DNA from: a virus
Length of the DNA stretch: 26,927 nt
IMG/VR virus record: IMGVR_UViG_3300028030_000055
Span: 1-26,927 of that record
Reading direction: 5' to 3' (one strand)
The notes beneath the pieces are model-generated. The model was given only the letters and a program-made list of their open reading frames with translations, searched no databases and was not told the origin of the DNA. Positions 5,930 to 24,761 of the stretch are shown piece after piece (the stretch's first letter is position 1; each line of letters starts with the position of its first letter). A program made the position numbers and the translations under genes.

Positions 5930-6703
5930 TTATATCTCCTTATGTAAAGTGGTATTTGCGGAGCCCATTAAGGCTTCCAGTTGTGTTCGGCACCTGTCAA
6001 TAACCGCTGGTGTTGGGTCATTTAATAAGTGTAAGGGTATCACGTCTTGTGCGCTTCTGTTCGCTATCGGCGCACTTGGTTTAAAGGTTGCCCCGTGGTA
6101 GTTGCGGTTAACAAACTTTCGGATAGTGGCCCCTTTTTTGTGATGAGCTTTGTTAAAAGCGGGCAGTGACTTATGGCGCAAATGGTACTCTATAGCACAA
6201 TTATACGTAAAGTCACCGGGGTCGATATAGACCAAGTGGTTGTTAGTCTCCACCATGTTTTTGATTGTGGATGCGAACTGTTGGCTTAGTGTAGTTGGGC
6301 TGTTCGTGTCCATATTCTTAATTGCAACCCAATCGGCAGACAGTTCTGTAAATTGTAATAGCGCTTGCGGTAACGGTGTGACATCTGTTGTTAAGCTAAC
6401 AGTGGATTTGTTATAGTTTCCGTTATCAACCAACTTGTCAATCACAGTTGACTGCAAAATGGTAAATGGTTGTAAAGCTGTATGTCGGTTGTCATAATGT
6501 ACCTTCGGTCCTTGTAGTAACCCAACGTAAGTGGCGCTAAAGTCTGGATGTAAGCTTTCGAACAGAAAGCGCGTATGGTGTACAGCATTCACAAAGGCGG
6601 TGCCTGATGTAGAGAAGTTATACAAATCAACTGGCACCAACAGGTGGTCGTCTGATTGTTCTAGCCGGTACAGTAGGTATCTGGTGGTTGGCCTATACAG
6701 CAT
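5930..6703 (-). CDS. 257-aa hypothetical protein upstream of terS
   Basis: I recognise no family. The product is soluble-looking, with no signal peptide or membrane span, and is rich in His, Asn and Thr. A segment around residues 155-190 (LVYIDPGDFTYNCAIEYHL, then a KAHHKKG basic patch) is the most structured-looking part. AAGGAGACAC precedes the ATG. It overlaps the upstream gene by 11 nt and ends 1 nt before the terS start codon, so it is translated as part of the packaging operon. A role in packaging or in an early step controlled with it is inferred from position. Confidence 0.75.
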   Translation of the reverse strand: MLYRPTTRYLLYRLEQSDDHLLVPVDLYNFSTSGTAFVNAVHHTRFLFESLHPDFSATYVGLLQGPKVHYDNRHTALQPFTILQSTVIDKLVDNGNYNKSTVSLTTDVTPLPQALLQFTELSADWVAIKNMDTNSPTTLSQQFASTIKNMVETNNHLVYIDPGDFTYNCAIEYHLRHKSLPAFNKAHHKKGATIRKFVNRNYHGATFKPSAPIANRSAQDVIPLHLLNDPTPAVIDRCRTQLEALMGSANTTLHKEI

Positions 6704-7360: not shown

Positions 7361-7401
7361 GCAGTTGGTTAAATGGTCTAATTATCAAAAACTATAAACA
7401 T

Positions 7402-7476
7402 AGTTTACCATAAGTTTCCTTAAAGTTAGCTTAAATTATAGAGAAAACTTAAAAATAACTGAAATTTAGGTAAATT
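7402..7476. repeat. Divergent-region element A, copy 1
   Basis: An AT-rich stretch matching 8582-8646 in the same orientation. Shared blocks are TTACCATAA, TTCCTTAAA, TAGCTTAAATT and AACTGAAATTT, with a roughly 10-nt insertion in this copy. The two copies lie close to the two ends of the non-coding region, near the two operons. A shared protein-binding or replication-related site is inferred. Confidence 0.75.
7435..7463 (-). promoter_or_regulatory. Candidate sigma70-like promoter for the minus operon
   Basis: On the minus strand a perfect TATAAT (7440-7435) lies 17 nt downstream of TTCAGT (7463-7458), a weak -35 with three of six consensus bases. It would start transcription near 7428, giving a leader of about 150 nt that includes the 7287-7360 hairpin. 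The region is AT-rich, so chance matches are easy. Confidence 0.35.
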
Positions 7477-7766
7477 TAAGGATAGTTCTAGTGGTTTCTT
7501 AGCATGTTGTAAAACTTATTGTGATTTCTGCCCAATAATCTACCTTATATTTTTACCTTACAGATTTTATACATTTTGTGTTGTATATATCTACTAGGAA
7601 TTCCCTTAAAGTATCACTACGTTCAAAATCGGTGATTAGGTAAATTTTAGGTTTTCATGCAGATGTTTGGTTTGATAAGATTATTTATATGCGTTTAAAC
7701 GAACGTAAAGGCGGTTTTAAGCGCGAAACGGGGGTGAGGGTATACCATGGGCTGGGTGACTATATA

Positions 7767-7797
7767 AAATGGCTTTAAGGTGCCTCCCACGCAAGAT
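7767..7797. repeat. Element B, copy 1
   Basis: AAATGGCTTTAAGG followed by a CCTCCCACGCAAGATT-like tail matches 8287-8316 in the same orientation, with a few substitutions. Both copies lie shortly after a GTTTAAAC octamer. Both open with ATG GCT TTA AGG in frame, but neither has a ribosome binding site. Confidence 0.65.
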
Positions 7798-7845
7798 TTT
7801 AAAATTTAGTTATTTTCGGGTAAAGCTGCTGGTTGCTTTTGGTGC

Positions 7846-7969
7846 CCCTCCCCCCTCAGACAAAACAAAGAGGTTCCTTCTTTCCTCCTTCTTTTCCCCA
7901 GACCCCTTATTAACCTCCTATTATCCTCCAGAAACAAAAACTCAAACCCCCCCTCCCCACCGTCATTAG
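7846..7969. other. Pyrimidine-rich tract
   Basis: Over some 120 bases the plus strand is mostly C and T, with C-runs at 7848-7856 and about 7949-7956 and several CCTCC words. A plus-strand frame is open through it but codes for Pro/Ser/Lys low-complexity sequence and has no ribosome binding site, so I do not call a gene. Strong strand asymmetry can favour R-loop or triplex structures; that is inference. Confidence 0.5.
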
Positions 7970-8285
7970 AGCTGACTAGGTTAGACATTATTACGTGTTG
8001 GGATATTAGCATCCTTAAGCTCCATAAGTTGGACATTAAGTACTTCCCACTCCGTTACGCTTACGCTTCACTCCGCTCCGTGCTGCGCACTGCTTGATTG
8101 ACTTCGCCAATCAATCCTTAAATTTAGTACCTTAATCTCTTAAATTTGTACAGAATACCAGAAATACTTAAATCAGTACCAATCAAACAATTAATCTGAA
8201 ACAGAATGTGTGTTTAAACGCACAGAATAGCACTTTAAAGGCAATTTAACACCTTAAGTAATACCTAGACATACCTAACACTTAA

Positions 8286-8317
8286 AAATGGCTTTAAGGC
8301 CCCTTCCAGACAAGATT
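8286..8317. repeat. Element B, copy 2
   Basis: Matches 7767-7797 over AAATGGCTTTAAGG, then CCCCTTCCAGACAAGATT. The frame starting at the ATG encodes 18 codons (MALRPLPDKI onward) to a stop, and copy 1 begins MALRCLPRKI. The resemblance may be just the DNA repeat, since no Shine-Dalgarno sequence precedes either ATG. Confidence 0.65.
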
Positions 8318-8581
8318 ATGACTATTAAGCAAAACAGATGGTGATTAACCACCAAAAGCAACCATCAGAACCTTAAGCAAGTACAACCTGAAATCTACTC
8401 ACCAAAGGCAACCAACGCTTCGCTTCGCTCAGCAAACCCCCCGAGTTCCGAAAACCCCCCTTTGAGACCACCAGCAACCACAAAACCGTCCAACTTTAAA
8501 TATTCTGCTATATATGTCTCTATTAGCTCTATTAGTTACTAGTGGTGTATTACTGGTCTTCACTTCCGTTCGACCAAGACA

Positions 8582-8646
8582 AGCTTACCATAATCTTCCT
8601 TAAACCTAGCTTAAATTCCAAGAAAAAACTGAAATTTGTTGAAATT
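8582..8646. repeat. Divergent-region element A, copy 2
   Basis: Matches copy 1 at 7402-7476. It lies just upstream of the plus-strand operon leader and ends in two near-repeats GAAATTTGTT and GAAATTTCTC. Its position, about 10 nt before the 8656 palindrome, suits a regulatory or promoter-proximal role. Confidence 0.75.
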
Positions 8647-8655
8647 TCTCCCAAA

Positions 8656-8674
8656 GTGTTACAATTCGTAACAC
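8656..8674. promoter_or_regulatory. Palindrome GTGTTAC-N5-GTAACAC, possible operator of the late operon
   Basis: A perfect 7-bp inverted repeat (GTGTTAC AATTC GTAACAC). It overlaps a TACAAT (8660-8665) that could serve as a -10 with TTGAAA (8639-8644) as a -35, although the 15-nt spacing is short. The arms match the palindrome at 58-74. A bound regulator here would cover the promoter. Confidence 0.45.
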
Positions 8675-8699
8675 CTGTCAGCACAAAAGTGGATTAATC

Positions 8700-8712
8700 C
8701 AAGACCCTAATA
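8700..8712 (+). promoter_or_regulatory. CAAGACCCTAATA motif, copy 1 (late-operon leader)
   Basis: First of four exact copies of this 13-mer, all on the plus strand of the structural operon. It lies 150 nt before the portal start and just before the GAGGGGA hairpin. A promoter, RNA-processing or factor-binding role is possible; see the matching copies. Confidence 0.5.
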
Positions 8713-8720
8713 CTCTCACT

Positions 8721-8738
8721 GAGGGGAGAAATCCCCTC
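8721..8738 (+). other. Leader hairpin GAGGGGA-GAAA-TCCCCTC
   Basis: A 7-bp perfect stem closed by a GAAA tetraloop, a very stable RNA fold. No U-run follows, so it is not a standard terminator. It is one of several hairpins in the 200 nt before the portal gene and may protect the 5' end or bind a factor. Confidence 0.6.
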
Positions 8739-8772
8739 AACATTCGGCTCTGGTCAAGTCCGTATCCTTTGG

Positions 8773-8790
8773 TGGTGCCTTCGGGCACCA
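8773..8790 (+). terminator. Leader hairpin TGGTGCC-TTCG-GGCACCA, possible terminator or attenuator
   Basis: A 7-bp perfect stem with the extra-stable TTCG tetraloop is followed by only three T residues (8791-8793). It could be a weak intrinsic terminator or attenuator in front of the structural operon, or a structural leader element. A further 6-bp stem, GAGCAT/ATGCTC, follows at 8796-8816. Confidence 0.45.
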
Positions 8791-8863
8791 TTTACGAGCA
8801 TAGTTGCAAAATGCTCAGGATAGCACACAACCAGCAACCAAAAACAACCCACAAAGGAGACGT

Positions 8864-10252
8864 ATGTGGCCATTTAGCAAACCTAACAACAGCACAGCAC
8901 CCCCAGAGGAGCTGGAAACAAGAGCACATGGGGTGACCAGAGATTCAGGTATCTCGACCAGAACGGTAACAGCACTAAAAGGTATGTTTACAAGCAACAC
9001 ACGGAACAGTCGTATAAATGAGGAATCAACTTACGCAACCAGCGACCTTGTGCATAGCTGTGTAGGCTACATAGGGAAGCAAGTATCTCAAGTAAGATTT
9101 AACCCTATAGAGATCGTAGATAAGTCCCAAAATAAGAGCATTCCGGTAAAGCACAAACTACTACAAGCAATGTTTACTGGGCAACCTAATCCATACCAAA
9201 CATGGAACGCATTTAACACTATAGTATCTCACAGTTTGTCACTTTATGGCAACGCCTTTATCTCCTTTGAGAAAATAAAGGGGCGCTATGAGCTATGGGC
9301 AATACAAGACCCCAAAGCTGTAAGCGTTATATTGGACGAAGATGGACTACCAGAAGGTTACCTAGTAGGGGAAGAAATTACTTACTCCACTGAGGAAATG
9401 TTGCATATAAAATCAACCACATTGGGATCAGGAGTGTATGGTCTATCACCATTATCCCCGTTATTTGACCAATTAGCAATTGAAAGTTACGCAACCACAG
9501 ACATTAAGGACTTCTATAAAAATAGCCTAGTGTCAACCTCCCTATTGACATCTGAACAACCGTTGACAAAAAAGCAAGCGGCAGCATTGACAGAAAGTAT
9601 CGGGGAGCAGTATAAAATCTCCAAAGGGCGCCATAGTTTAATTGTGTTGCCTAACAATTTGTCTGTTAAAGGGTTACGCTTGAGCCCCAAAGAATCCTTG
9701 CTTTTGGAAAGTTTGGATGTGGCCGAGGATAGAATCTTAGGATTGTATAGCCTCCATAAAATGTTGGTTGGTGGTAATATAGAGAGTTATACTCACAACC
9801 TAAGTGAGTTGATGAACGTACAATTTGCATCAGCAATTCGCCCAGTTGTATTTGATATACAAGCGGAGCTGGAAGCATTCCTACAGCGAGTATTGAAAAA
9901 GCCTAATCTGGTAATTGAGGTAGACTTTAGTAGGATACCAGAAGTTAAGTTAGCGCTGTTGACACATATGGAGAGTGCTAGATCACTTTACATATCAGGA
10001 GTTGGCAGCTTGAATGAATCCAGAAAGATACTAGGGCTACCAAGAATTGAGGATAGTGAGTTGGCAGACCAGAACCACTTACCATCATTCCTTATTGGCT
10101 CTGATTTGAATACCATCCAGAACTTAGATGCAGAAAGCATCAAGAAGATACAGGAAAGCAACCGGGAAGTAACAGGTAGCACACCGGTGGACACCCCAAG
10201 TACTACAGACCCTATGGGTGGTAAAAATACAGGCAAGAAGGACAAGCAATGA
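8864..10252 (+). CDS. HK97-family portal protein
   Basis: The portal dodecamer forms the DNA channel at the packaging vertex and nucleates capsid assembly. The ATG at 8864 is chosen because AAAGGAG (8853-8859) precedes it. The frame extends upstream to a TTG at 8804, but that lies within the hairpin leader and lacks a ribosome binding site. The 462-aa product opens MWPFSKP and shows the usual features of this family: an early YATSDLVHSCVGYIGKQVS helix, SLSLYGNAFI, a MLHIKS segment, GLSPLSPL, and a C-terminal portion beginning DVAEDRILGLYSLH. The acidic/polar tail ends in a Lys-rich stretch. The stop overlaps the protease start (ATGA), so the two are coupled. Confidence 0.95.
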   Translation: MWPFSKPNNSTAPPEELETRAHGVTRDSGISTRTVTALKGMFTSNTRNSRINEESTYATSDLVHSCVGYIGKQVSQVRFNPIEIVDKSQNKSIPVKHKLLQAMFTGQPNPYQTWNAFNTIVSHSLSLYGNAFISFEKIKGRYELWAIQDPKAVSVILDEDGLPEGYLVGEEITYSTEEMLHIKSTTLGSGVYGLSPLSPLFDQLAIESYATTDIKDFYKNSLVSTSLLTSEQPLTKKQAAALTESIGEQYKISKGRHSLIVLPNNLSVKGLRLSPKESLLLESLDVAEDRILGLYSLHKMLVGGNIESYTHNLSELMNVQFASAIRPVVFDIQAELEAFLQRVLKKPNLVIEVDFSRIPEVKLALLTHMESARSLYISGVGSLNESRKILGLPRIEDSELADQNHLPSFLIGSDLNTIQNLDAESIKKIQESNREVTGSTPVDTPSTTDPMGGKNTGKKDKQ

Positions 10253-10842
10253 TTACACAGGATACCATAACATTTAAAACGGTTGATACCACCGATGACT
10301 ACATTCTAATCTCGGGGTACGCAAATAAGTACGTAACCTCTGGTGAGGCAGTAGTTGACATGGAAGGTACAATTATCTCCCCTGCTGGGATTGACCTATC
10401 ACGCTTTGAGAAGAACCCAATAATTCTGTATGAACACGTAAGTGGTGCCTCAGTTGGTAGAGCTACAGTGGCAGAGGTAAGAGAAGATGGTTTATATTTG
10501 GAAGCTAAGATTTTCAAAGATATTGACCCTATAGTTTATGCTAAAGTAAAGAACGGGGTTGTCAACACCATGTCAGTAGGGATGATTCCAACGGATGGCT
10601 ACTGGTCGGATGTGTTTGAAGCCTACGTAATTACAGAGTGTCAACTATTTGAGGTGTCACTAGTTGACATACCATCTAACGAAGATAGTGTTATAGAGCA
10701 TGTCCAATTGTGCGACTCTAATGAGTGCACGATGGTACGTAGTGTGTCTAAGGAAGCTGAAAGCAAACTAAAAGCTAAGGCCGGTAGGGACAGAGATAAA
10801 GCAATGATTCGCAGTGTAGTTGAAAAGCTACTGGTGCAATAA
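10249..10842 (+). CDS. Prohead protease, S78 (HK97 gp4) family
   Basis: This serine protease digests scaffold and capsid extensions during maturation. The 197-aa product has the expected order: an ILISGYAN strand, then NPIILYEH with candidate catalytic His63, NTMSVGM with candidate Ser109, and FEVSLVDIPSN (residues 134-144), typical of the family. The C-terminus after about residue 155 is charged and helical and may be removed on activation. The start overlaps the portal stop by four bases. Placement between portal and scaffold/capsid genes matches HK97-like phages. Confidence 0.93.
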   Translation: MITQDTITFKTVDTTDDYILISGYANKYVTSGEAVVDMEGTIISPAGIDLSRFEKNPIILYEHVSGASVGRATVAEVREDGLYLEAKIFKDIDPIVYAKVKNGVVNTMSVGMIPTDGYWSDVFEAYVITECQLFEVSLVDIPSNEDSVIEHVQLCDSNECTMVRSVSKEAESKLKAKAGRDRDKAMIRSVVEKLLVQ

Positions 10843-10860
10843 CATAACAAAGGAGAAGAC

Positions 10861-11316
10861 ATGACCAAAGAAGACCTAACCGCAATGGTACAAGAAGTAT
10901 TAGAAGAGATAAAGGGTGCAGAGCCTGACGCACCAGAGGAGCCAACAACGGAAGAAACACCTGTTGTGGAGCCTGAAGCACCGGCGGTGGAAGAGCCTGA
11001 AGCACCAGCGGTGGAAGAAGCACCAGAGGAAACACCACCGGCTGAAGAGCCACCAGTAACCGTAGAGCCGCTGAATGTTGATGATATTGTAACACAAGTT
11101 ATTGATAAACTGGGGGAGACGCCAAGGCAAGACCCTAATACTACTGTAGCCGATGAGAGCTTTAAGAGTACCTTAAGTAAAATTGAGGAGTCTTTGACCA
11201 CATCAGGTGAATTCACCGAAGAGGAAACCGCATTACTTGACTTCATTCTTGTTAACTACGATGGTATTAACGAACGTGTAGATAAGCTACTTGGGGTCAC
11301 CCCTTCACAATCTTAA
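10861..11316 (+). CDS. Acidic Pro/Glu-rich protein, probable scaffold
   Basis: A 151-aa, highly acidic product. After a short helix comes a low-complexity Pro/Glu/Ala segment (about residues 20-75, repeats like EAPAVEEPE), then a helical C-terminus (about 78-150). AAAGGAGAAG lies before the ATG. Sitting between prohead protease and major capsid protein, and with a capsid protein that has only a short N-terminal extension, it is well placed to be a separate scaffold digested by the protease. The gene carries an embedded copy of the CAAGACCCTAATA motif. Scaffold function is inferred; low-complexity sequence prevents a family call. Confidence 0.75.
   Translation: MTKEDLTAMVQEVLEEIKGAEPDAPEEPTTEETPVVEPEAPAVEEPEAPAVEEAPEETPPAEEPPVTVEPLNVDDIVTQVIDKLGETPRQDPNTTVADESFKSTLSKIEESLTTSGEFTEEETALLDFILVNYDGINERVDKLLGVTPSQS
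11118..11140 (+). promoter_or_regulatory. CAAGACCCTAATA motif, copy 2 (23-bp repeat, inside scaffold-like gene)
   Basis: These 23 bases are identical to 15199-15221, with the 13-mer core at 11128-11140. This copy is inside coding sequence, 193 nt before the major capsid start. Exact identity between a coding and a non-coding copy argues for selection or recent copying at DNA/RNA level. It could supply extra capsid mRNA, but no transcription data exist here. Confidence 0.55.
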
Positions 11317-11333
11317 TTTAAATTGGAGAACAT

Positions 11334-12494
11334 ATGGGTATTACTGCTCTTAAAGACATCCAAGCTGAAGTAACCAGCTTGAAAGCAAAACTAGACGAAG
11401 TACAGACTAGAAAAGGCAAAGGTGTACAAACACCAGTATTTTCCCGCGACGTTGAATTGGACAAACGTGGTGCTGACATGTACGTCATTGGAAAAGTTAC
11501 GGGTGCTGACTTTGAATCCATGAAGGGATTTGAGAAAGCTGTTGAGTATGGTAAGAGGGCCGCTATGGTTCCCGGAGACCTTCCTAACTGGGTAGAAGAA
11601 AGTTTCGCAAATGACATTCTTGAGAGAATGACTGTTATTGCAGAAGTTGCTAATCTATTCCCTAAGTATACCATTCCAAATGGAACACAAACACTGAGTA
11701 TCCCTCAGAAACTAACCAAGACAAAAGCATACCTAATTGCCGCTGGTGCTGATGCAGTACAATCTGCAATCACTTCTGGTAAAGTAAGCTTTGCTACTCA
11801 ACGCCTTGTAACTCTTGTAGCTCTTGCCGACCAAACAGACTTTGAAACAGTCGTTGCTCTGGTAGAAGTTATTAAGAATGACATTGCTGAAAGTCTTGTA
11901 TTGGCACTTGAAGAGGCTATCCTCAATGGTGACACTGACATTGCCACTGGTATCAACGGTGTTGTACCTGCTAACGACGTAAGAGCTACCTTCGATGGTG
12001 TTCGTAAAGTTGTTAAAGATAGAGGCAATCAGGTAGACTTCGGCGGCGCTATGACTTACGGTAAGCTCCTTGAAATGCGTAGAGCACTTGGAAAAGATGG
12101 TATCTCTCAGAAAGACCTAGCGTTTATTGTTAGCCCTTCTGTATTCCATCAGCTAATCTCTATGCCAGAAGTACTCACAATGGATAAGTATGGTGCGCAA
12201 GCTACTGTAATTACCGGTGAGGTTGCTAAGATTGGTCAAATCCCTGTATTGGTATCTGAGTTTATCCCAGAAGATGTACAAGCGGATGGTACTGGTAGTG
12301 GCGACACTAACACACTGATTGTTCTTGTTAACCGCAGAGCATTTGGTTTGGCCAGTAGAAAGACAATTGGGTTTGAAGCTGATAGAAATATCGTGAATGC
12401 TACTAACCTCTATGTCGGACACCAAGATGTTGACTTTAAGCCTCTTCTTCCTCACAAAGAAGTCGCCTCTGTTGGTATCAACATTCCTGCCTAA
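11334..12494 (+). CDS. Major capsid protein, HK97 fold
   Basis: The 386-aa product would form the icosahedral shell. A short N-terminal helix (about residues 1-35, heptad-like ALKDIQAEVTSLKAKL) stands in for the long delta domain of HK97 gp5. Family-typical features follow: an N-arm/E-loop region with VPGDLPNWVEESFANDILERM, an A-domain containing EEAILNGD and a FIVSPSVFHQLISMP segment, and a C-terminal strand region with LVNRRAFGLASRKTIGFE. TTGGAGAACAT precedes the ATG. Codon use is rich in GTT/GCT/ATT compared with neighbours, as often seen for a highly expressed gene. Position after protease and scaffold agrees. Confidence 0.93.
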   Translation: MGITALKDIQAEVTSLKAKLDEVQTRKGKGVQTPVFSRDVELDKRGADMYVIGKVTGADFESMKGFEKAVEYGKRAAMVPGDLPNWVEESFANDILERMTVIAEVANLFPKYTIPNGTQTLSIPQKLTKTKAYLIAAGADAVQSAITSGKVSFATQRLVTLVALADQTDFETVVALVEVIKNDIAESLVLALEEAILNGDTDIATGINGVVPANDVRATFDGVRKVVKDRGNQVDFGGAMTYGKLLEMRRALGKDGISQKDLAFIVSPSVFHQLISMPEVLTMDKYGAQATVITGEVAKIGQIPVLVSEFIPEDVQADGTGSGDTNTLIVLVNRRAFGLASRKTIGFEADRNIVNATNLYVGHQDVDFKPLLPHKEVASVGINIPA

Positions 12495-12699
12495 TCGGTA
12501 GGAACTCCTTGACCCTACTAATTCACCGTAGGGTTGCATTAACATCACAGTAAGCCCATACACACGAGGTATGGCCTGTGATACTTCCTCATAACACTCC
12601 CCAAACATTCCAACATAATACATAATTTGCCTAGGCAAGACCCTAATATTTTTAATAGATCGGGCTACACCCTGATACTTTAATTTTAAAGGTTAACTT
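12495..12699 (+). other. Structured intergenic region after the capsid gene
   Basis: This 205-nt gap has two good stems: ACCCTAC/GTAGGGT with a 9-nt loop (12512-12534), and a two-part hairpin with outer ATCACAG/CTGTGAT and inner CCATAC/GTATGG arms (12544-12582). No T-run follows either. The third CAAGACCCTAATA copy comes later, at 12636-12648. It could limit read-through, stabilise capsid mRNA or start a new transcript. No small gene was found. Confidence 0.55.
12629..12648 (+). promoter_or_regulatory. CAAGACCCTAATA motif, copy 3
   Basis: Twenty bases matching copies 2 and 4 with a single substitution (T at 12632). The end of the motif is 51 nt before the ATG at 12700, almost the same spacing as copy 4 has to the tail-tube start (50 nt). 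TAATAT at its end resembles a -10 box, but no convincing -35 lies 17 nt upstream. Confidence 0.55.
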
Positions 12700-12972
12700 A
12701 TGAAATATTTTGTTAAGTATATTGCTAATGGTGTCTATCGTGGCCCAAATGATACGGTAATCCCTAAAGGTACCGAGAAAGAACTAACACAGGAAATGTA
12801 TGAATACCTAAACAGCACCTTCGGTGATTCTGGTTGGTTTACATTCAGAACAGAAGGCGCAAAGGCTAAAGCTAAACCAGTAGCTAAAGATGAACCTACT
12901 GAAGATGTAAAGGTAGAAACCCCTAAACCAAAGAGAGTAGCCCCTAAAAGAGCTACTAGAAAAAAAGACTAA
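12700..12972 (+). CDS. 90-aa protein with Lys/Ala/Pro-rich tail
   Basis: A folded-looking N-terminal half (about residues 1-51, with GVYRGPNDTVIPKGTEKEL and GDSGWFTFR) is joined to a highly charged, Lys-rich tail ending KRVAPKRATRKKD. The basic tail could contact DNA or the acidic capsid surface. AAAGGTTAA precedes the ATG. Located between capsid and connector genes, it may be a minor head or decoration protein, but I recognise no family. Confidence 0.75.
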   Translation: MKYFVKYIANGVYRGPNDTVIPKGTEKELTQEMYEYLNSTFGDSGWFTFRTEGAKAKAKPVAKDEPTEDVKVETPKPKRVAPKRATRKKD

Positions 12973-12990
12973 TGTTGATAGGGGACAATC

Positions 12991-14172
12991 ATGATTAATC
13001 AAAAACGAATCATTACCCCACACCCCCTTTTACCACAATTTACAGAATGGGGACAAACAGACCTGACCGATAGCATAAACTATTATGCTGTTAACAGTTC
13101 TCTGTATGCCGCTGAAGCTTATATCAAGAAGAGGTTTGACCTTAGACTATTTGCAACCAATAAAGTGGACGCAGGTAGACTCCTTGGTGCCTTCGGTGAC
13201 TCCCCACTACTCCCAAAGACTACATACTACACAGGTACTACGTTTAAAACACTTCCAGCAACACTTGCTAACATAAAGCCTCACATCCAGAATTGGAGTG
13301 AACTCTCTGATCTAGTAGTACAATGGAATGAGTTTCCTAACAATGGGGCCAACTTACAGTATACTGAATACGTCGATGGGTACATTGTGCCTAGTAGCCC
13401 CTCTGCACAAATAGATGAGGCGACCTCAAGTAGGACAGCTAGTGCACCTTTTGTAGAAGTGGATGAGGCATACCAGTATCCATTTGTAACACAGGCAACC
13501 ACACTAGATGTGATTGTACATGGCGCAGATGGCTATGGTGTGTTTGTGGATGGTGAGGATAGCACTAAGGTGGTAACTGGGGGAACTGCAACCATAACGG
13601 TTGACTCAAGCAGACCTTCAACATATAGTATAGCACTAAAGGCACCAACTGGCGCCGTCAGCGACCCTAGAAACATAATGGTAGTAAATGGTCCAGTAGA
13701 GCAACCATACATTGTACTCATAGGACAAGACATTGTAACTAATGGTGCCACCTGCGACATCACGGTGTTCGTGAACTATTCAGGCACTGTAAATGGACTA
13801 GTTGTAACCGAGGGACTCAACCAGATAGCACTACCAGTAACCACTGATGTGACACAGATTACTTACGTGGCCAATGGAATCACTATTGAAGGACCTATGG
13901 TAATATGTAAGGTGGATAATACGCTACCAGACGCGGCTGTTAAGTCTTATAATAAGGTGCATGGAAGAGCTGTAGAGGACGCCAATATGCCCCCTGATTT
14001 ACTTATGGCATACTTTAGGGTTGCCTTGGCGTTCTTCAAAGAGGCATTAGGTAAAACGGATGATATTGAAAGGTACAGCGCCGGTATATCTAAAGCAATT
14101 ACCTTCAACGGCCATAAGATATCGAAAGATATTATTGCAATATTGAGTACCTATATGGTGTATGAGTGGTAA
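12991..14172 (+). CDS. Probable head-tail connector (adaptor) with inserted Ig-like domains
   Basis: The 393-aa product has helical ends and a beta-rich centre. Residues about 1-65 (with SSLYAAEAYIKKRFDLRLF) and 330-393 (PPDLLMAYFRVALAFFKEAL, then a helical end) look like the two parts of an alpha-helical connector. Residues about 165-325 read as two immunoglobulin-like beta units, rich in Val/Thr/Gly (for example GYGVFVDGEDSTKVVTGG). Ig-like decorations on head, neck and tail proteins are known in phages and are thought to bind surfaces weakly. GATAGGGGAC lies before the ATG. Position between capsid and neck genes supports the connector call; the insertion makes it much longer than usual adaptors. 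Confidence 0.65.
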   Translation: MINQKRIITPHPLLPQFTEWGQTDLTDSINYYAVNSSLYAAEAYIKKRFDLRLFATNKVDAGRLLGAFGDSPLLPKTTYYTGTTFKTLPATLANIKPHIQNWSELSDLVVQWNEFPNNGANLQYTEYVDGYIVPSSPSAQIDEATSSRTASAPFVEVDEAYQYPFVTQATTLDVIVHGADGYGVFVDGEDSTKVVTGGTATITVDSSRPSTYSIALKAPTGAVSDPRNIMVVNGPVEQPYIVLIGQDIVTNGATCDITVFVNYSGTVNGLVVTEGLNQIALPVTTDVTQITYVANGITIEGPMVICKVDNTLPDAAVKSYNKVHGRAVEDANMPPDLLMAYFRVALAFFKEALGKTDDIERYSAGISKAITFNGHKISKDIIAILSTYMVYEW

Positions 14173-14186
14173 CATAAGGAGGCCCT

Positions 14187-14738
14187 ATGGCTGTTAGAGT
14201 TTTACAAGTTGATAACACATATAAGAAGTGGAAACAATCCATGAAGAAATATGGGTTTGTTGATGAGCAACTTAAGGTAGCAGAAACTGTAGAAACCTCA
14301 CTTATGGCAGAACAGCAAGTTATTCAAAATGCTGTTTATCAAACCACTAAGAACAGAGTGACCCGCTGGGGTAATAAGCTCAAGCGGTTGCTCAGTACAC
14401 CAATACCTATTAAGTATATGCATAAGAAGCGCCCAGCGCTTCGGAAGCTCCCTTATATGGTGAGTGGTGCTATGGCTAACAGCCTTGAAGTAGATTTGGT
14501 ACGCACGAAGAAGCGAGCTAGTTGGGTATACACAATGACGATACAGGTGGACGGATTCTCGGACCACACCACAGAGCAATCCCATGCTGAACATACAAAC
14601 TTGGGACACAAGAGTACTAGAAACGTTCGATGGGAACACTGGACGGATAACGTACTTGGAGATACCCCACACACAGCTAAGATTGTCTCCGCCGGTATCC
14701 TTATGCGGGAATACCTATTTAAACCAGTAAGCCTTTAA
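14187..14738 (+). CDS. Probable neck / tail-completion protein (HK97 gp10-like)
   Basis: A 183-aa basic protein with a long N-terminal helical region and a compact C-terminal part (SHAEHTNLGHKSTRN, then a hydrophobic end). A strong AAGGAGG sits 5 nt before the ATG. In HK97-like gene order the position between connector and tail terminator is that of the head-closure or tail-completion protein with a gp10-like fold. Basic charge, size and order fit, but sequence motifs alone are not conclusive. Confidence 0.6.
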   Translation: MAVRVLQVDNTYKKWKQSMKKYGFVDEQLKVAETVETSLMAEQQVIQNAVYQTTKNRVTRWGNKLKRLLSTPIPIKYMHKKRPALRKLPYMVSGAMANSLEVDLVRTKKRASWVYTMTIQVDGFSDHTTEQSHAEHTNLGHKSTRNVRWEHWTDNVLGDTPHTAKIVSAGILMREYLFKPVSL

Positions 14739-14751
14739 CGAAAGGAAGGAC

Positions 14752-15198
14752 ATGACAGAAGACAAATTACTACACTCGTTTGCAGAGACGTTAAGAGAAT
14801 TAAAGGAAGACCCTTCAGATGCCTTCTCTCCTAACCTATTTGCGGACGTGATAGAGAACAACGTACCACCTTGGACTTCCTTAACTAACTTCCCTACAGC
14901 GGCAGTTGCATTAGGGCAGGCGGAGTATGGTAGAATCAATAGGGACCACCAACAGGTAACAATTCAGATGACAGTGTATGTCTATAATAAGTATCGGGTT
15001 AACGGGTTATCTCTTCCAGACATCTTATCTTATCCTATATCACGGGTAAGGGCTGCTGCTAATACAGTAGTTGATGCAAATATACTGTCATCAACTGTTA
15101 TATCATCCACAAGAGACAATGGAACTATACACCCGTACACGGTAGCTGAGTTGCTGGTGGAAGTGGTAATGACCCAAAAAGTGCGAGAAGCCTGTTAG
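14752..15198 (+). CDS. Probable tail terminator protein
   Basis: A 148-aa product with an alpha/beta pattern: an N-terminal helix, PTAAVALGQAEYGRINRDHQQVTIQMTVYVY strand region (about residues 48-80), a helix, and a final beta strand ending VAELLVEVVMTQ. This resembles the gpU-type fold that caps the finished tail tube. AAAGGAAGGAC precedes the ATG. Placement directly before the tail tube gene supports it. Call rests on order and size more than on diagnostic residues. Confidence 0.6.
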   Translation: MTEDKLLHSFAETLRELKEDPSDAFSPNLFADVIENNVPPWTSLTNFPTAAVALGQAEYGRINRDHQQVTIQMTVYVYNKYRVNGLSLPDILSYPISRVRAAANTVVDANILSSTVISSTRDNGTIHPYTVAELLVEVVMTQKVREAC

Positions 15199-15221
15199 GA
15201 CGCCAAGGCAAGACCCTAATA
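15199..15221 (+). promoter_or_regulatory. CAAGACCCTAATA motif, copy 4 (23-bp repeat before tail tube gene)
   Basis: Identical over 23 bases to 11118-11140. It begins immediately after the terminator-gene stop and ends 50 nt before the tail tube ATG. Between motif and start lie short palindromes (GGATATCC, TGTGCACA, ATATTAATAT). The tube protein is needed in very high amounts, so a dedicated promoter or mRNA processing site here would make sense. Confidence 0.6.
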
Positions 15222-15271
15222 TAGCTACAATGGATATCCTCCATGTGCACATATTAATATAAGGATTTCTA

Positions 15272-16270
15272 ATGGCAATTCAGAAAACACGAGCAACCTA
15301 CGTTGCAGTTAAAGAAGAGACCACATTTAAAGGTGCTCTTACATTCGCAGATGGTGATGTTATCGCATATGATAGCTTTACTATGAAACCAGATGTAGAG
15401 TCAATTACAAGGGACTACGTTAATAGTAGAACACTACTTAAAGGCCAACCCCTCCAAGGTAAGTCTACAGCATCCGGCTCAGCAACTATTGAGGTTGTAC
15501 CAGATGCAGCCGACAGTAAGAAGCTGGCAGGCCATGTCCTGTATGATACAACATTTGGTAAGTTTACTTCTAATGGTGCAACTATTGATGCAGCCACTAT
15601 TGGGGATCATATTGCAGCCACAGATGGTGATGCAGGTGTTTACTACCTAAGTGATGCTAGTGACACTATGAAGTCATTAGGTGTCAAGTACGCCATTGGT
15701 GGTACAGAAGCAAACAGTGTTGATATTAGGGGTGTGCTTGTTAGCTCACTTAAAATCAACTTCCCTACTCAAGGTATTGTAACAAGTGACTTTTCACTTG
15801 AAGGTTCCACAGGATTTATTCCAGTAGCACAAGGTGCAACACTGGCAGAAGCTTGTAGTTCTAAAACACCATACGTAGCTAGAGGAATGACCGTTATCGT
15901 TGGTGGTGCATCTGTTTGTGCGAGTGACTTGTCAATAGACATCACAAACACAGTAACAGACTTCACTTGTGTAACTGATACAGGAACAGGGGCTAAGACA
16001 GTAACTGAGCGTGCGATTAAAGGTTCGTTTAAGATTGCGTTTGAAAACCTCGATGAAGTGAATGCCTACAACGCGGCTACCAGTATGTCTATATTTGCTA
16101 AAGCCACCAGTCTTGATGGTAACGAATTTGCAGTATACATCCCAGTAGCTTCAAGAACAAGCCTTGATATTGGTGATGACTCAGGGACCGTTGTCCAGAC
16201 AGTAGAATTTGAGGTAGCTAGCTCATGTGGAGCAGGTGCAACTCAACCAATTATGATTGCTAGTAAGTAA
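15272..16270 (+). CDS. Major tail tube protein
   Basis: A 332-aa beta-rich product with many Thr, Ser, Ala, Asp and Gly and no membrane span, as usual for tube subunits that stack as hexamers. It starts MAIQKTRATYVAVKEET and includes repeated strand-like segments (VRGV-type VDIRGVLVSSLKINFP at about 155-170, and ERAIKGSFKIAF at about 247-258). ATAAGGATTT precedes the ATG. Its place between tail terminator and chaperone genes is diagnostic in siphoviruses. It is longer than minimal tube proteins, so an extra surface domain is likely. Confidence 0.8.
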   Translation: MAIQKTRATYVAVKEETTFKGALTFADGDVIAYDSFTMKPDVESITRDYVNSRTLLKGQPLQGKSTASGSATIEVVPDAADSKKLAGHVLYDTTFGKFTSNGATIDAATIGDHIAATDGDAGVYYLSDASDTMKSLGVKYAIGGTEANSVDIRGVLVSSLKINFPTQGIVTSDFSLEGSTGFIPVAQGATLAEACSSKTPYVARGMTVIVGGASVCASDLSIDITNTVTDFTCVTDTGTGAKTVTERAIKGSFKIAFENLDEVNAYNAATSMSIFAKATSLDGNEFAVYIPVASRTSLDIGDDSGTVVQTVEFEVASSCGAGATQPIMIASK

Positions 16271-16295: not shown

Positions 16296-16721
16296 ATGGC
16301 CATAGTCAAAAACAAAACCAGAGTACCATCGGAGTTTAAATACATACCAATAAGTGAGAGGGAAGATAAAAAACCCTTTAGTGTGACATTCAAACGAATG
16401 TCGCTAGAGGACACTTCCTCTGTCATGGATGGGTCTGTAATAATCGACCAACATGGTAGATATACAATGCAAGTCAACTCACAATATACTGCTATCCTGA
16501 AAGCCACTGTAAAGGGTTGGGATAACATGATAGACGAGAAAGGCAAGCAAGTAGGCATCACCATAGAACATGGTGAACTAAGTGATGAAAGTTTACTAAT
16601 GTTACCAGAGGATATCAGAGCAGAACTTGCTATGGTAATTCTGGCGGTCAGTAAGTCTCCATCAGATTGGGAAAGTATTATTTCTGGGCCGGTCGATGAA
16701 GCAACAGACGAAGATAAGTAA
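16296..16721 (+). CDS. Probable tail assembly chaperone (gpG-like)
   Basis: A 141-aa product: N-terminal KPFSVTFKRMSLEDTSSVMDGS, a helical middle, then a hydrophobic helix (RAELAMVILAVSKSPSDW) and an acidic end. This matches the size and place of chaperones that hold the tape measure before tube assembly. The last 26 bases overlap the next frame, as in gpG/gpGT pairs where ribosomal frameshifting joins the two. It starts 25 nt after the tail tube gene with a weak ribosome binding site (AGGGAATGAC). Confidence 0.65.
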   Translation: MAIVKNKTRVPSEFKYIPISEREDKKPFSVTFKRMSLEDTSSVMDGSVIIDQHGRYTMQVNSQYTAILKATVKGWDNMIDEKGKQVGITIEHGELSDESLLMLPEDIRAELAMVILAVSKSPSDWESIISGPVDEATDEDK

Positions 16722-17334
16722 TCTTCCAGTAAGCACGGTGTTCCTCTCGGAGCACCTTTTACAAATACCCTCTGGACTCTCGTGGGGTATACGAACACTT
16801 TCCCATAAAGAACTACACCAAGTTTCCGCAAGATTCCCAGATAGTAACAGACTTAAGTATGAGGTAGCCAAACTAGGCTCTATAGACAACGTAGATGACG
16901 TAGTACTCTCAATAAAAGATATTGAGTTTATAGCAGAAGCTATTATGCACATTAGCACACTGAATGCAGATATCATAGATGGTGTTACTACACTTTTAGA
17001 TATTAAAGACGAAAAGATGGTGTCACAACCAGATTTCAAATGTGATGTATGCCAAGAGAAGGGCTTAGACAAAACACGCAATTGCCCACTATTAGATAAA
17101 GACACACATGAACCTTCACTGTTCTATTTACTTGGAAACAAGAAGTACACTGAATGTCCTATGGATATAATTAACAAGTATGTAGAAGATACCTATACGA
17201 CATTCAACATACTAAACAGCAAATTCCTTCCAGAGGTTGGGGGGATGGTGGACCAGACTAAATTTGTTTTTACTTTGGGGCCTTACATCGTTGGCAAGAT
17301 GAAAACACTTTCTGATGACATAAGTGACAACTAA
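16696..17334 (+). CDS. Second tail chaperone-like protein with Cys4 cluster (possible frameshift partner)
   Basis: The 212-residue reading frame lies in the +1 (or -2) frame relative to the preceding chaperone gene and overlaps it by 26 nt. The ATG at 16696 has no good ribosome binding site, so it may be made only as a frameshift fusion. Cys116, Cys119, Cys130 and Cys154 (KCDVCQEKG...NCPLL...TECPMD) form a likely zinc site. A C-terminal helix-rich region precedes the tape measure gene by 12 nt. Position just before the tape measure fits the gpT part of a chaperone pair. The actual start is uncertain. Confidence 0.65.
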   Translation: MKQQTKISNLPVSTVFLSEHLLQIPSGLSWGIRTLSHKELHQVSARFPDSNRLKYEVAKLGSIDNVDDVVLSIKDIEFIAEAIMHISTLNADIIDGVTTLLDIKDEKMVSQPDFKCDVCQEKGLDKTRNCPLLDKDTHEPSLFYLLGNKKYTECPMDIINKYVEDTYTTFNILNSKFLPEVGGMVDQTKFVFTLGPYIVGKMKTLSDDISDN

Positions 17335-23391: not shown

Positions 23392-24761
23392 TACGATTAC
23401 TATTAATGACACTCATCCTACTAACGGGGTGTGACAAACAAGGAGAAGATATGACTATATTCCCATTTTTGGAGGTTAATACAACGGCGTTTACTACGAA
23501 TGTTGGCGACTCCACATCACTATTTGTAAAGGGTAACAACTACCCATACGGAACGATTGTTAGGCTAGACGACAAACTATACACTACAAATGAATTACCA
23601 AAACAAAAGACTAGGCTTATATCCAAAAAAGTAGGGGACAAGGAGTTTTATTCTGTGGATGGTGAATATTACGAGGTGTATAAAGCCATCAACCCGATGG
23701 ATTATACTACAACTGAATATTCTTCACCGACATGGGAACAGCTCACAACTGTCGACTCCACAACTGTTGTTGGGGACTACTCATTTGATACCCATTGGTC
23801 GGGGATAGCACCGAATCTTGCTATTACTGTAGCAATAACAAAAATATCGACAGGTGAAGAAGTAGAAAAAAGTAAAGTCCTTGCAAGCGTGAAGGATGGC
23901 GATGTGGTGGACTATAGCAATAATGGGTATGTCGGACATCCATCTTGCCCTATCTGCAAATGTGTATTTGAGGATGGCTTAGTAAAAATTCTAAACCGAG
24001 GTGATATACCATCCCCTACAGATACGGGCTACTTTGTAAAATTATTAGAACCTACAGACTGGGGATTGGTGGATGTCTCTGTATCCTATCCACTCATGCC
24101 ATTTGACGACAAATCCTACACCGCAGCATCTGCGACTGGACATCTATATTACGACAACATAGTATCCGCAGACGCTGGAGAGTTCAGCACTGTAGCACTC
24201 TACGGCATGGTAGCCGATAGTTACAAGGTCACCTTTGACAATGGAGAGATACACGAGGGCACGATACCACTCACAGAAGCAGGGATTACACGATTTATCA
24301 AAGCAGATAACACGACCTCACACTGTAGGATAGACCTATACCGTGCAGACGGGGGCAAAGTGTCTATCGGAGGTATCGGTATCAGCCGTGAAGCTATCGA
24401 CATGGGAGGCACTAAGTTTTCAGCAGATGGCACGATGAACGACAACAGCCCTTATGAGACTAGAAAAGGTGGAGTAGTGGATTATCGCCCTGGAATTACC
24501 ACATTCAAAGACGGGGTGACGACCATCATCCCTATAGAAAACGAACAGACATTGGAAAACCTACGGACTACCATAAAAATGGTAAAGCGCAGAAGATTGG
24601 CGTTTGATATAGGGGATGCTTGGCATCAAAAAGACGACATAAATGTGGCCATGCAAGTAGTAGCTAGAGCAGAAAGCATCTCCTATAATCTACGCTCAGG
24701 CGGTAAAGACGAGCCACCAGAGTACATTGAGGTCAGGTGGAAGATAGGAGAGAGCTCATGA
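23388..24761 (+). CDS. Distal tail protein with two in-frame starts; longer form begins with a lipobox
   Basis: From 23388 (ATGA overlap with the tape measure stop) the product is 457 aa and begins with a lipoprotein signal: a hydrophobic run, then LTGC with Cys15 and Asp16. From 23451, Met22 has an excellent AGGAGAAG ribosome binding site and starts MTIFPFLEV, giving 436 aa without the signal. Both are plausible. The main body is beta-rich, with a CPICKC cluster at about residues 189-194 and a charged C-terminus. Its place right after the tape measure suggests a distal tail or baseplate protein. A lipidated form would be odd for a virion part and may act in the membrane of the infected cell. 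Family not recognised. Confidence 0.75.
   Translation: MIRLLLMTLILLTGCDKQGEDMTIFPFLEVNTTAFTTNVGDSTSLFVKGNNYPYGTIVRLDDKLYTTNELPKQKTRLISKKVGDKEFYSVDGEYYEVYKAINPMDYTTTEYSSPTWEQLTTVDSTTVVGDYSFDTHWSGIAPNLAITVAITKISTGEEVEKSKVLASVKDGDVVDYSNNGYVGHPSCPICKCVFEDGLVKILNRGDIPSPTDTGYFVKLLEPTDWGLVDVSVSYPLMPFDDKSYTAASATGHLYYDNIVSADAGEFSTVALYGMVADSYKVTFDNGEIHEGTIPLTEAGITRFIKADNTTSHCRIDLYRADGGKVSIGGIGISREAIDMGGTKFSADGTMNDNSPYETRKGGVVDYRPGITTFKDGVTTIIPIENEQTLENLRTTIKMVKRRRLAFDIGDAWHQKDDINVAMQVVARAESISYNLRSGGKDEPPEYIEVRWKIGESS

Follow-up and report, generated by a model that had tools for sequence, protein, structure and literature searches.

A 13-mer, CAAGACCCTAATA, occurs exactly four times in the viral DNA studied here, at 8700, 11128, 12636, and 15209, always on the plus strand of the structural operon, and this repeat is a real, non-random, regulatory-looking element. 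We propose, at a probability of about one half, that it is a low-copy, phage-specific, single-element late promoter that would work like those of phage phiEco32. The window is the whole stretch that was analysed, namely, the entire 26,927-base fragment that makes up IMG/VR record IMGVR_UViG_3300028030_000055, and it is not a complete genome. In this fragment the packaging genes are oriented to the left (7388 to about 449) and the structural operon to the right, in the order portal, protease, capsid, tail terminator, tail tube, tape measure, and spanin-like genes, the spanins being assigned by inspection. Between the tail tube and tape measure genes, where tail assembly chaperones are usually encoded as a frameshifted pair, ORFs 16296-16721 and 16696-17334 overlap. 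Tandem repeats of 11, 41, and 18 nt lie at 1-55, 315-457, and 2071-2200, in the left end and the leftward genes, and the 18-nt array encodes a repeated ADDTPL within a 918-aa orphan protein. The copies of the motif and the genes that follow them are as listed.

8700..8712, plus strand: motif copy 1, exact CAAGACCCTAATA, before the portal gene
8864..10252, plus strand: portal protein gene (PF04860, E 1.2e-36), AAAGGAG before its ATG
11128..11140, plus strand: motif copy 2, inside ORF 10861-11316, where it reads Q-D-P-N; upstream of the capsid gene
11334..12494, plus strand: major capsid gene, HK97 type, distant T5-like (PF05065, phrog_267)
12636..12648, plus strand: motif copy 3, within the gap of 205 nt that precedes the 90-aa gene
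12700..12972, plus strand: 90-aa gene, function unassigned, first gene past copy 3; no family match
15209..15221, plus strand: motif copy 4, within the gap of 73 nt that precedes the tail tube gene
15272..16270, plus strand: tail tube gene (PF18906, E 1.9e-19), first gene past copy 4

Copy number, strand, and placement of the 13-mer

The first-pass annotation had reported four exact copies confined to the plus strand of the structural operon, and our exact-match scan bears this out. No copy with one or two mismatches was found on either strand of the whole window, and matches with three mismatches numbered nine against about 10 by chance. Four copies of a dispersed 13-mer never arose in 200 dinucleotide shuffles, in which the highest count was three, seen once. 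When the same repeat scan was run on T7 as a positive control the T7 promoter came out as the top word with ten copies; most other phage loci examined had no dispersed 13-mer with even three copies, and most T5-like loci gave nothing. The longer identities that had been described were reproduced by alignment: 11118-11140 (copy 2) and 15199-15221 (copy 4) are identical over 23 nt, and 12629-12648 (copy 3) matches both over 20 nt with one change.

The placement of the motif is not random. Only 2.4% of the structural operon is noncoding and only two gaps inside it are longer than 28 nt, 12495-12699 and 15199-15271, each of which holds one copy. Copy 1 is in the 1.5-kb divergent intergenic region, and copy 2 is within an acidic 151-aa ORF (10861-11316) and ends 193 nt before the capsid ATG. 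The chance of the whole four-copy placement is about 3.5e-5, and the divergent packaging-gene operon carries no copy on its strand. Copies 3 and 4 were said to end 51 and 50 nt before start codons, and they do, the codons being ATG 12700 and ATG 15272. That copy 1 precedes the portal gene and copy 2 the capsid gene holds for the order of the elements but not for an equal spacing. The probable start of the portal gene is ATG 8864, rather than TTG 8804, because the AAAGGAG ribosome site lies ahead of this ATG, and copy 1 therefore ends about 151 nt upstream. Thus, the spacing of about 50 nt is common to copies 3 and 4 only, and over the four copies the distance from motif to start ranges from 50 to 193 nt.

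A strict word confined to one strand is characteristic of nick sites (PMC3517423), and a possible but unlikely reading is that a phage endonuclease cuts the plus strand at the motif, leaving localized single-strand interruptions in the virion DNA of the kind known from T5, phiKMV-like, and tf-like phages. Like the motif, nick motifs are strand-exclusive, strictly conserved, and few in number, with no degenerate copies, and T5-like phages, the distant relatives of the head genes, are known to have nicks. In phiKMV the published nick consensus, CGACN5CCTACTCC, is found exactly three times, at 6314, 13986, and 24128, each time inside an annotated putative phage-specific promoter (6306-6343, 13979-14015, and 24121-24157). 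The phiKMV-like consensus, CGACN5CCTA/CTCCGG, resembles our motif in having three exact-type copies on one strand with one just before capsid, and a position ahead of the capsid gene is compatible with nicking; it differs in that sequence likeness does not exceed chance and in that phiKMV, a podovirus, has an RNA polymerase of its own. The nick motif of the tf/LUZ24 group, TACT/RTGMC, is also a strict one-strand word, but it has 14 copies, mostly inside genes and some antisense to genes. In tf 10 of the 14 sites are wholly within a CDS and all 14 touch one, whereas here three of the four copies are noncoding and two of these are within an operon that is 2.4% noncoding. Also against nicking, the copies differ from the nick consensus sequences of T5, phiKMV, and tf, and a homologue of a nickase was not found among the proteins of the fragment. 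If the motif is a nick site, a further lineage would join a phenomenon that has lacked an explanation for 50 years, and the coincidence of nick sites with annotated promoters in phiKMV would become a sharper question.

Dyads, pyrimidine-purine step, and hairpins around the copies

The sequences flanking the copies contain the following features.

8690..8701: perfect 12-bp palindrome TGGATTAATCCA, sharing two bases with the start of copy 1
11121..11128: imperfect dyad GCCAAGGC, adjoining copy 2; 3-bp arms, not significant alone
12627..12638: perfect 12-bp palindrome TTGCCTAGGCAA, sharing three bases with the start of copy 3
15202..15209: imperfect dyad GCCAAGGC, adjoining copy 4; 3-bp arms, not significant alone
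8718, plus strand: putative start site of copy 1, a purine after a pyrimidine, 6 nt past the motif
11146, 12654, and 15227, plus strand: putative equivalents of 8718 for copies 2, 3, and 4
8720..8792, plus strand: two strong hairpins between copy 1 and the portal gene (RNA fold z -3.4)
12511..12582, plus strand: pair of hairpins without a U tract, immediately behind the capsid gene and ahead of copy 3

Perfect 12-bp palindromes number only five in the whole window, and two of these adjoin copies 1 and 3. The arm sequences of the dyads differ among the copies, and what they have in common is symmetry and not sequence; since the dyad region was inspected after the copies were known, any probability attached to it is indicative only. 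A third perfect 12-bp palindrome, GGTGAATTCACC, lies at 11206-11217 between copy 2 and the capsid gene. The symmetry would suit a site at which an antitermination, replication, or packaging factor binds dyad and core without the site being a promoter, and the location of copy 1 in the 1.5-kb repeat-rich intergenic region would also suit it. We consider such a binding site quite improbable because one dimer would not read all of these dissimilar dyads alike, and all copies share one orientation and are placed before genes. The intergenic region itself (7389-8863) is noncoding and divergent. It contains a direct repeat of 66 nt (7402-7467 and 8582-8647, 74%), a repeat of 33 nt at 7766 and 8285 (85%), and, near 7846-7960, a tract rich in pyrimidines, and it is possibly an origin, early-promoter, or packaging region.

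A pyrimidine-purine step follows all four copies: column +5 is C, T, T, T and column +6 is A, G, A, A. The chance of this is about 0.016 over four offsets, for a step that was noticed after the fact. From +10 to +19, counted from the motif start, the sequence is AT-rich with a mean GC of 0.25.

The hairpins past copy 1 are at 8720-8739 and at 8771-8792, the latter with a UUCG loop. Those after the capsid gene are a possible partial terminator or mRNA-stabilising structure, and the RNA fold of 12500-12600 has a z of -3.1. An RNA-level element, that is, a site of mRNA cleavage, stability, or translational control with the dyad forming a small hairpin, would agree with strong hairpins flanking copies 1 and 3, with dyads adjoining the same two copies, with a motif found on the sense strand only, and with leaders of equal length after copies 3 and 4. 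It is nevertheless quite unlikely, as folding of the leaders of copies 2, 3, and 4 gave no more stable structures than shuffled sequence did (z of +0.2, -0.9, and -0.6), the copies have no downstream structure in common, the distance to the next start varies from 50 to 193 nt, and no known structured RNA was found, Rfam giving no match even at E 5 except for two chance hits.

A promoter, an RNA-processing site, and a binding site for a late factor had all been suggested for the motif. Its strand, its occupancy of the long gaps, its spacing to start codons, and the common pyrimidine-purine step favour a transcription element, an RNA-site or nicking role being possible as well. These features, together with the leader lengths and the position ahead of the capsid and tail tube genes, make a late promoter the simplest reading.

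Searches for relatives and for known promoters

No scored sigma70-type promoter was present at any copy, in agreement with the earlier remark that a good sigma70 -35 is missing, and by eye there was no fit to the sigma54 and sigma32 consensus. Scans for T7, T3, SP6, K11, and Syn5 promoters were negative or not significant, only copy 1 being T7-like. This copy runs on as TAATACTCTCACTGAGGGGAGA (8707-8728), which scores highest against T7 in the whole window and is near the T7 promoter TAATACGACTCACTATAGGGAGA less one base. That the motif is the promoter of a T7-type single-subunit RNA polymerase is nonetheless very improbable, because the score was equalled in 6 of 60 shuffles, the other three copies show no T7 resemblance, the G at which known enzymes start does not come directly after any copy, and the polymerase gene is absent from the fragment. 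A tRNA scan was negative.

Homology scans with the capsid, terminase, tape measure, tail tube, and portal proteins and with a T5-like terminase alignment found no close relatives; the head proteins match T5-like phages at only 23-41%, and no T5-like match was seen for the tail tube or for a 393-aa protein. The 15-mer GGCAAGACCCTAATA gave 28 scattered hits in viral contigs, none of which had a second copy or encoded relatives. At least 120 contigs carry the 13-mer ahead of a ribosome site and an ATG. Almost all of the fetched contigs with the 13-mer look coding at that site (CAA GAC CCT AAT, which reads Q-D-P-N), and they contained no relatives except for one weak hit and no dispersed copies outside coding repeats. 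A 20-mer had zero hits in 85,000 bacterial and archaeal genomes, and a 41-nt search of phage records returned only 19-nt chance hits. The element thus appears to be private to this lineage, which is neutral as to its function.

A proposed late promoter and its counterparts in known phages

We infer from the sequence that the promoter would consist of the contiguous 13-bp element together with the dyad directly upstream in at least two copies, and that it would be read on the plus strand by host RNA polymerase with a phage sigma-like or appropriating factor whose gene would lie outside this fragment; no gene for a sigma factor or RNA polymerase was found in the 26.9 kb. The TAATA(Y) part would be opened as a -10-like region and RNA would start 6-8 nt downstream, at the purine near each of the putative start sites listed above. 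Separate late transcripts would then cover the whole operon (from the portal copy), the capsid gene, the post-capsid genes, and the tail tube gene. Capsid and tail tube are virion proteins needed in many copies and strong expression of them is expected, and it is these two genes that follow the identical 23-nt copies 2 and 4. The positions of copies 1 and 2, 151 and 193 nt ahead of their genes, count against a promoter, as does the use of sigma70 promoters for the late genes of T5. If it is one, the structural genes of a lineage without a close relative in the collections searched have four defined start sites, and a transcription factor encoded outside the fragment would be indicated.

Our confidence goes no higher than one half because there are precedents of repeats misread as promoters. 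In KP34 the longest repeat was named a promoter but the purified polymerase did not transcribe it (PMC6834552). In phage 7-11 four 12-bp repeats, with an E of about 1e-8, were called late promoters (PMC4331800), whereas the mapped late promoters have a different consensus, GTAAtg-16-aCTA (PMC8948821). It is highly improbable that the motif represents a new promoter class, in which a dyad of conserved symmetry but variable sequence (hairpin or cruciform) plus a fixed core of 12-13 bp would be used by a phage transcription factor and would possibly double as a nick site in the virion DNA; such doubling is suggested by the coincidence in phiKMV described above. Most likely, CAAGACCCTAATA is a new sequence of an already known kind of thing.

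T5 is the nearest recognisable group for the head genes, with distant relatives of the terminase, protease, and capsid, but T5 late genes have sigma70 promoters (TTGACA and TATAAT with 16-18 nt spacing) and there are none at the motif sites. The class III promoters of T7 are similar in that 23-bp near-identical copies lie ahead of capsid and tail genes; they differ in that only copy 1 is alike in sequence and that no G start comes right after the motif. T7 phi6.5, phi9, phi10, phi13, and phi17 start 33-85 nt before genes, and the 50/51-nt leaders of copies 3 and 4 are within the range of known late promoters.

In phiEco32, AAGACCTA is exactly 22 bp upstream of TAATGTATA at two late promoters, 9079 and 25992, and the three leftward copies of TAATGTATA shown are without AAGACCTA; by eye, no TAATGTATA-like element was seen at a 22-bp distance here. 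The late promoters read by the phiEco32 gp36 sigma have an unrelated consensus of 9 bp, tAATGTAtA, compared to the 13 bp of the core CAAGACCCTAATA. In leader length the two are similar: the phiEco32 elements end 33-38 nt before genes with leaders of about 35 nt, and copies 3 and 4 have leaders of 50/51 nt. Unlike in phiEco32, dyads abut the copies and the sigma gene is not seen in this fragment. The two are the same in being a single contiguous element with a TAAT core, present in few copies before structural genes and without a -35, and phiEco32 transcripts start 6-8 bp past this single element, an offset that the pyrimidine-purine step after our four copies fits.
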